Assembly: GCA_021823405.1 (NCBI GenBank)
Contig: JAKAOA010000007.1
Coordinates: forward strand, 1-48,875
Length of the DNA stretch: 48,875 bases
From: Bacteroidota bacterium
Lineage (GTDB): Bacteria; Bacteroidota; Bacteroidia; JABEUT01
Direction: 5' to 3'
Below the pieces are notes generated by a model. The model did no database searches, was not told the origin of the DNA, and was given only the letters and a program-made list of their open reading frames with translations. Positions within the stretch are counted from its first letter, which is position 1; each line of letters opens with the position of its first letter. Positions 9 to 4,730 of the stretch are shown here, one piece after another. A program made the translations under genes and the position numbers.

Positions 9-49
9 CAATGACGAGTAAAGAAATCATATCCGCTTTTAACTGTATA

Positions 50-85
50 ATGCGTTGCTCCTGCTGCTGTATGCGGCAGTGCTGA
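50..85 (+). CDS. Candidate leader peptide, 11 aa, five Cys
   Basis: ATG at 50 opens an 11-codon ORF, MRCSCCCMRQC, ending at TGA 83-85. Five of the 11 residues are Cys and one is an internal Met, which fits a sensor of charged tRNA-Cys (and perhaps tRNA-Met) ahead of a methionine biosynthesis gene. The same frame extends up to ATG 11 (24 codons, six Cys), but that ATG would lie at or before the predicted transcription start, so the inner ATG is preferred. No clear Shine-Dalgarno is visible, which is usual in this phylum. The start and stop codons both lie in the arms of the 50-90 hairpin. Confidence 0.5.
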   Translation: MRCSCCCMRQC

Positions 86-129
86 CGCATCTCGTCTTTT
101 TTTCATTAATAAATAATTTTTAAAAGTAC

Positions 130-173
130 AAGATGCCTCTCTCAAAAGGAGACGTCTCTTTAATTTTTTTTTT
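130..173 (+). terminator. Intrinsic terminator in the metX-hom leader
   Basis: The arms 130-141 and 149-160 pair with two mismatches around a 7-nt loop. Ten T residues follow at 164-173. It lies 39 nt before the metX-hom start, so it would stop the message unless an alternative structure forms. Confidence 0.6.
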
Positions 174-211
174 ACCGACATACAAATCAACTTAACTTAC
201 CGTAAAAAGCC

Positions 212-3563: not shown

Positions 3564-4730
3564 ATGCATCCGGAAACATTAGCCATACATACCCAGACAG
3601 AGCGAACCCGTTATAACGAACATTCGGTTCCGCTCTATCTTACCTCCAGCTTCATATACGATGACGCGGAGACCATGCGCGCCATGTTCGCCGACGAGAA
3701 GGATGGGTATATATACAGCCGTTTTACAAATCCGAACGTTACCGAGTTTGAAGAAAAGATACGTCTGCTGGAAGGCGCCGAGGCGGCGGCAGGATTCGCT
3801 TCAGGCATGGCTGCCGTTTTTGCGGTGTTCGCGGCGCTGCTGAACAGCGGCGACCGTGTGGTATGCTGTCATTCGGTATTCGGCGCAACGCATTCTGTGC
3901 TCGAAAAGCACCTGTCGCGATGGGGGATACATTTTAATTATGTGGATATCGGGAAGACGGAGGAATGGGAAAAATCGGTCAGCGGCGGCGCGAAAATCAT
4001 TTTTGTGGAGACCCCGTCAAATCCGGCGCTCGATATCATCGACCTTGACTGGCTTGGGAAATTATCGAAGAAATACAGCTGCATTCTTGTAGTCGATAAT
4101 TGTTTTGCCACCCCCATTCTGCAACAACCGATTCGTTTCGGCGCAGATATCGTTATACATTCCGCCACAAAGTATATCGACGGGCAGGGAAGGGTGTTAG
4201 GCGGTGCGGCTGCCGGAAAAAAGGAGCTTATATCGGCTGTAAAATTATTTGCCCGGCATACCGGACCCTCGTTGTCTCCATTTAACGCATGGATACTCTC
4301 CAAAAGCATTGAAACCCTTGCGCTCCGCATGGAACGCCATTCAGAAAATGCGGTAGAAATAGCCCGTTTTCTTGAAAAGCATAATGCCGTAGAACGGGTG
4401 ATGTACCCATTCCTGCCTTCCCATCCGGCGTATGCGATAGCCAAAAAGCAGATGAGCGCAGGAGGAGGTATGGTTTCATTTGTAATAAAGGGCGGATTAG
4501 ACCGCGGTAAAAGGTTTCTCGATTCCCTTAGCATGTCATCGCTTACGGCAAACCTCGGCGACACGCGAACGATAGTTTCGCATCCCGCCTCCACTACTCA
4601 TGCAAAGCTTACCGAAGAGGAGCGCGAGCGCACAGGCATAGCGCCCGGCCTCATCCGCATATCAGCCGGTATTGAGCATGTGAGTGATATTATAGCCGAT
4701 TTGGAACAGGCGTTTCAGAAAATCAGGTAG
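3564..4730 (+). CDS. metZ: Cys/Met-metabolism PLP enzyme, O-acyl-homoserine sulfhydrylase (MetZ-like)
   Basis: A 388-aa gamma-family trans-sulfuration enzyme. The PLP-binding lysine is K203 in HSATKYIDGQGR. Other family marks are YSRFTNPN near the N-terminus, GFASGMAAV, VETPSNP and VVDNCFATP. It most likely converts O-acetylhomoserine, the product of the fused MetX-Hom, plus sulfide to homocysteine. The length and the GQGRVLGG stretch resemble MetZ (O-succinylhomoserine sulfhydrylase) more than the longer MetY. The MetX upstream indicates the acetyl ester as substrate. Cystathionine gamma-synthase or lyase activity cannot be excluded by sequence alone. Confidence 0.85.
   Translation: MHPETLAIHTQTERTRYNEHSVPLYLTSSFIYDDAETMRAMFADEKDGYIYSRFTNPNVTEFEEKIRLLEGAEAAAGFASGMAAVFAVFAALLNSGDRVVCCHSVFGATHSVLEKHLSRWGIHFNYVDIGKTEEWEKSVSGGAKIIFVETPSNPALDIIDLDWLGKLSKKYSCILVVDNCFATPILQQPIRFGADIVIHSATKYIDGQGRVLGGAAAGKKELISAVKLFARHTGPSLSPFNAWILSKSIETLALRMERHSENAVEIARFLEKHNAVERVMYPFLPSHPAYAIAKKQMSAGGGMVSFVIKGGLDRGKRFLDSLSMSSLTANLGDTRTIVSHPASTTHAKLTEEERERTGIAPGLIRISAGIEHVSDIIADLEQAFQKIR

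Follow-up and report, generated by a model that had tools for sequence, protein, structure and literature searches.

The window, a 48,875-nt stretch of DNA from Bacteroidota contig JAKAOA010000007.1, starts at the first base of the contig. On its forward strand, positions 212 to 2470 hold metX-hom, whose 752-aa product joins MetX (homoserine O-acyltransferase) to homoserine dehydrogenase, and a sulfhydrylase of the MetZ/MetY type is encoded at positions 3564 to 4730. A short open reading frame (ORF) lies 5' of metX-hom on the same strand (positions 50 to 85, ATG50 to TGA85). It had been described in an initial annotation as a Cys-rich ORF of 11 codons with five Cys and an internal Met, and the sequence reads exactly so: the translation is MRCSCCCMRQC, with Cys codons at positions 56, 62, 65, 68, and 80. 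Of the 1,569 ORFs of 4 to 75 codons found on both strands of the whole window, no other reaches 5 Cys in 12 residues. The predicted ORF thus offers the run of pathway-related codons typical of an attenuator, and we presume that it is the sensor, since relatives carry comparable peptides.

The start of the leader ORF was considered together with the promoter. An in-frame N-terminal extension from ATG11 (positions 11 to 49, forward strand, MTSKEIISAFNCI...) would lengthen the peptide to 24 aa (MTSKEIISAFNCIMRCSCCCMRQC). Positions 1 to 8 of the forward strand form a −7-like promoter box, GATCTTTG, with one mismatch to TAnnTTTG, the consensus placed at −12 to −5 of Flavobacterium promoters in PMC9723704. 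A scan of the window showed no enrichment of the TAnnTTTG box upstream of genes; an identical ATCTTTGCA precedes the leader of a strain of the same genus (L003). Weak as the box is, its comparison with the consensus suggests that transcription starts near position 13. As ATG11 lies upstream of this putative start, the extension is probably untranslated.

We then evaluated the RNA structures of the leader by folding and by checking the pairs base by base. A trp-like geometry with three pairings had been proposed, and the mutually exclusive 1:2, 2:3, and 3:4 helices that define such attenuators are indeed present. Strand 1 (positions 50 to 55) forms six Watson-Crick pairs with strand 2 (positions 85 to 90), which overlaps both the stop codon and the antiterminator, and this is the outer helix of a 1:2 element (positions 50 to 91) that folds at −22.5 kcal/mol. 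A predicted intrinsic terminator stands 5' of the gene, with a hairpin at positions 130 to 160 and the expected ten T at positions 164 to 173, separated by a TAA at 161 to 163. The hairpin is of modest strength, with two registers at −8.4 and −7.8 kcal/mol, and a simple terminator scan did not pick it up because its stem is interrupted. The antiterminator had been assigned to positions 93 to 103 and 144 to 154. This pairing exists as written (11 pairs, including two G-U) but reaches only −7.0 kcal/mol, versus −10.2 kcal/mol for the pairing of 87-92 with 131-136 and 94-100 with 122-129. We thus amended the antiterminator to a 5' strand at positions 87 to 100 and a 3' strand at positions 122 to 136, all on the forward strand, the latter overlapping the 5' arm of the terminator; the individual pairs are 87-92:131-136, 94-95:128-129, and 96-100:122-126. 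The leader as a whole folded with a z score of −3.0 versus dinucleotide shuffles (2/200).

The choice between antiterminator and terminator was then computed as a function of ribosome position, by equilibrium folding of this single sequence with the bases under the ribosome masked. With the ribosome stalled at Cys5 or Cys7, the antiterminator represented 0.98 to 0.99 of the ensemble, whereas the terminator represented about 0.95 with the ribosome at the stop codon and likewise in untranslated RNA from base 13. A codon-by-codon profile placed the switch within the ORF, with Cys3 to Met8 favoring the antiterminator and Cys11 and the stop codon favoring the terminator. Masked folding thus yielded all three states of the proposed geometry: a ribosome at the stop codon permits termination, and a Cys-stalled ribosome blocks the terminator, although the freed strand pairs with 122-136 rather than with 144-154. 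An equally strong ribosome-dependent switch arose in 3/500 shuffles of positions 86 to 129 in which the ORF and the terminator were held fixed.

From these features, a ribosome-mediated transcription attenuator that reads the supply of cysteinyl-tRNA and controls metX-hom appears very probable, in support of trp-type attenuation by Cys codons with the antiterminator amended as above. When Cys is ample, the ribosome would reach the stop codon (positions 83 to 85) and cover the antiterminator strand 87-100, so that hairpin 130-160 would form and RNA polymerase would stop in the U-tract. Under Cys shortage, the ribosome would stall on the run at positions 56 to 70 and disrupt the 50-55:85-90 helix; the freed 87-100 strand would pair with 122-136, preventing the terminator and allowing transcription of metX-hom. 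In the absence of translation, the 1:2 helix would form, the terminator would follow, and transcription would stop. As for the physiological logic, MetX would supply acyl-homoserine, the acceptor for direct sulfhydrylation, a reaction by which, from pathway knowledge, sulfide would enter homocysteine, methionine, and then cysteine. Since MetX makes the sulfide acceptor, control by Cys would be sensible where homocysteine is an entry point of sulfur.

In order to evaluate how widespread such leaders are, we gathered MetX relatives from 84,980 species genomes and from the genus of the window, and we scored ORFs with a Cys run, defined as four or more Cys in 12 residues and looked for within 300 nt. 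Riboswitches of the relatives were confirmed with Rfam. Among metY leaders with a SAM-I riboswitch, a Cys-run ORF followed the aptamer in 42/62 by motif and in about 40/59 after the Rfam check, in which three metY leaders, two from among the 42 and one outside them, fell below the Rfam threshold. Loose-motif matches to SAM-I in L211, L232, and L240 were rejected by Rfam. SAM-I leaders of metX contained a Cys-run ORF in 2 of 13 cases within 300 nt and in 7 of 13 when 700 nt were scanned, with members of the window's genus among the seven. In contrast, at the same threshold, no Cys-run ORF was found in the SAM-I leaders of metH (0/69) or metB (0/14), and the difference between metY/metX (44/75) and metH/metB (0/83) gave a Fisher p of 4e-19 on motif counts, a value that ignores shared ancestry. 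Shuffled metY leaders contained such an ORF in 7 of 620 cases (about 1%). About one-third of the riboswitch-bearing metY leaders had no Cys run at this threshold, and additional metY searches in three families (f58, f66, and f88) yielded few further leaders. The leader peptides of the relatives are 23 to 55 aa long and often terminate on the Cys run (CCCCCCFN, MCCMCCCCCMC, CICMCCCCC), and Met codons are interspersed with the Cys codons in many of them. The first observation named as speaking against attenuation had been the lack of any Cys-rich ORF in the leaders of orthologues; for most we found the opposite, as Cys-run ORFs recur at metX and metY.

Two side observations were made in this survey. 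In four genomes (leaders L017, L021, L022, and L042), the stretch between the Cys leader and metX contains a small ORF encoding about 70 aa; the protein of L017 (...AYGFAQRGGT...) had no Pfam match. Separately, the metY leader of L281, where no Cys ORF was seen, has a long TCAA tandem repeat between about 150 and 45 nt ahead of the gene.

The recurrence also bears on whether chance alone might have placed a Cys-rich ORF next to an unremarkable hairpin that regulates nothing. The exact stems are indeed known from a single sequence: family- and order-level searches (11 genomes) found no second copy of the window leader, and none of the collected orthologues shared it. A pattern search with TGYTGYNNNTGYTGYTGYTGY in 396 genomes was discarded, as its matches were mostly repeat-like runs. 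When covariation was evaluated in the congeners and in a set of leaders with the riboswitch, the helices were conserved but had almost no compensatory changes, and a congener hairpin scored in three leaders had one compensatory pair, not above shuffles. Chance is nonetheless highly improbable in our view, given the phylum-wide recurrence at the same genes and the low frequencies in the shuffle tests (2/200 for the fold, 3/500 for the switch).

SAM-I was present in 285/395 genomes of a class-wide sample. In three congeners (L003, L004, and L005), a SAM-I riboswitch (RF00162) followed by a Cys ORF precedes metX; the Cys ORF is MKNKRHSPFSKSAKRISFNNSNNCCCMCMCMQVM in L004, contains CCC in L005, and shows only a weak CC in L003. 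These congener leaders have no U-tract terminator, and their expression platform is unlike that of the window. In the window and in its 99.2%-complete genome, RF00162 had no match at the Rfam gathering threshold. Regarding other members of the genus, a SAM-I riboswitch lies before a separate homoserine dehydrogenase gene in L045 (G004:C6), the window having the MetX-hom fusion, and two genomes (G009 and G010, 98% and 96% complete) showed no metX match and no SAM-I; these may be methionine auxotrophs or use another route.

As the contig begins at base 1, a SAM-I riboswitch could be hidden upstream in an assembly gap, in which case the window would hold the usual riboswitch arrangement with a 24-aa Cys leader from ATG11. 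The riboswitches of L003 to L005 and the similarity of the ATG11 ORF to the longer leader peptides would fit this arrangement. We consider it unlikely, however: the nearly complete genome lacks an RF00162 match, a promoter-like box occupies positions 1 to 8, and the U-tract terminator is unlike those congeners and like riboswitch-less leaders elsewhere. Moreover, the ORF of relatives begins about 30 to 45 nt past the aptamer motif; with no more than 10 nt available 5' of ATG11, the aptamer would have to sit wholly in the gap. Thus, apart from the small doubt left by the contig edge, the leader does not belong with the SAM-I leaders.

Cys leaders that lack an RF00162 match were also found in several other families of Bacteroidota. 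Upstream of metY, L222 (L286), L232 (L278), L233 (L279), and L235 (L280) encode tandem Cys/Met peptides, each followed by a GC-rich hairpin and in most cases by an unambiguous U run; in L213, at least the second peptide is arranged in this way. Together, these five leaders contain nine attenuators, in each of which a Cys/Met ORF is combined with an intrinsic terminator and with an antiterminator strand that a stalled ribosome releases. Equilibrium folding did not reveal the switch, owing to the high stability of these terminators; it appeared once transcripts ending short of the 3' arm of the terminator were folded. In these folds, a ribosome placed on the Cys/Met cluster leaves a strand available for pairing with the 5' arm of the terminator, and this strand is masked when the ribosome sits at the stop codon. 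Compared with shuffles, the nine ranged individually from 1/300 to 127/300, with a combined p of 8e-6. One family (L207, L282, L284, and L285) has paired Cys/Met leader ORFs in which no U-tract terminator is apparent behind the first ORF.

The riboswitch-less peptides contain more Met codons than the riboswitch-bearing ones (3.5 versus 1.9 per peptide; p = 0.001 to 0.003, ignoring shared ancestry), as though methionine sensing, too, had passed to them. By extension, the window peptide might sense methionine besides cysteine, via Met8 and the start region, and a computed stall at Met8 likewise favors the antiterminator. We regard this only as a tentative option, since the peptide has one internal Met against five Cys and shared ancestry weighs on the Met-codon comparison.

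The riboswitch-bearing relatives differ in what follows the Cys ORF, namely, two hairpins, generally with no U-tract; some of them have a first hairpin whose 5' arm can, by eye, also pair with the Met-Cys codons (AUGUGU with ACACGU). Given the general absence of a U-tract, the read-out in these relatives may be Rho dependent or translational. The same could hold for the window, as proposed for mycobacterial cys leaders, if the weak hairpin 130-160 were not a working terminator. Yet ten T follow this hairpin, the overlap of the antiterminator with its 5' arm is exact, and the other riboswitch-less leaders have strong terminators at the same place, so Rho or translational control of metX-hom seems quite improbable.

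Taking into account the recurrent Cys leaders behind SAM-I and the riboswitch-less metY attenuators of other families, we read the leader of the window, from its sequence, as one of a widespread kind of cysteine leader on methionine synthesis, in the form that lacks the riboswitch. For the phylum, it seems more likely than not that metX and metY, whose products provide the acceptor and fix sulfur into homocysteine, are read by SAM-I and a Cys peptide in series, that metH and metB are read by SAM-I with no peptide, and that stand-alone or tandem Cys/Met attenuators replace the riboswitch where it is missing.

We compared the leader with known systems. It shares with trp/his-type attenuators the codon-run ORF, the 1:2/2:3/3:4 alternatives, the U-tract terminator, and the ribosome dependence, here known from computation, but its regulatory codon is Cys and its gene serves methionine precursor synthesis. 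The cys operons of actinobacteria have Cys-run leaders with no conserved terminator hairpin (PMC1262725), and cysteine-responsive attenuators are reported in mycobacteria (Canestrari et al. 2020, as cited in PMC13236596). Actinobacterial cys leaders resemble the window leader in that a Cys run lies near the stop codon of a short ORF, upstream of sulfur amino acid genes; they differ in belonging to another phylum, in preceding cys rather than metX/metY genes, and in their control, which is ascribed to Rho or translation. In Rhodobacterales, uORFC-8-2 upstream of cysS likewise has Cys codons in tandem, accompanied by hairpins and ending in a U run (PMC8632094). Compared by description only, the window leader falls outside this group, which has two Cys codons, a cysteinyl-tRNA synthetase gene, and an alphaproteobacterial host. 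SAM-I stands before the orthologous gene and a Cys ORF in the congeners and most relatives, unlike in the window leader. Within the phylum, leader-peptide attenuation has been suggested for Bacteroides thetaiotaomicron small ORFs (PMC7366714) and for amino acid operons of Flavobacterium psychrophilum (PMC9723704); the latter shares the general mechanism, and the excerpted passages of that source name no cysteine or methionine case.

The initial annotation knew of no cysteine-sensing attenuator for methionine synthesis in this phylum, and neither did we find a Cys leader at metX/metY, alone or with SAM-I, described in searches of open-access article texts. Provisionally, the phylum-wide arrangement thus appears to be undescribed. 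If our reading is correct, methionine synthesis in a major phylum would respond directly, in cis, to cysteine supply, and signals from a metabolite (SAM) and from a charged tRNA (that for Cys) would converge on a single transcript. The same gene with riboswitch-bearing or riboswitch-less leaders would then offer a natural comparison, with metH as a built-in negative control.
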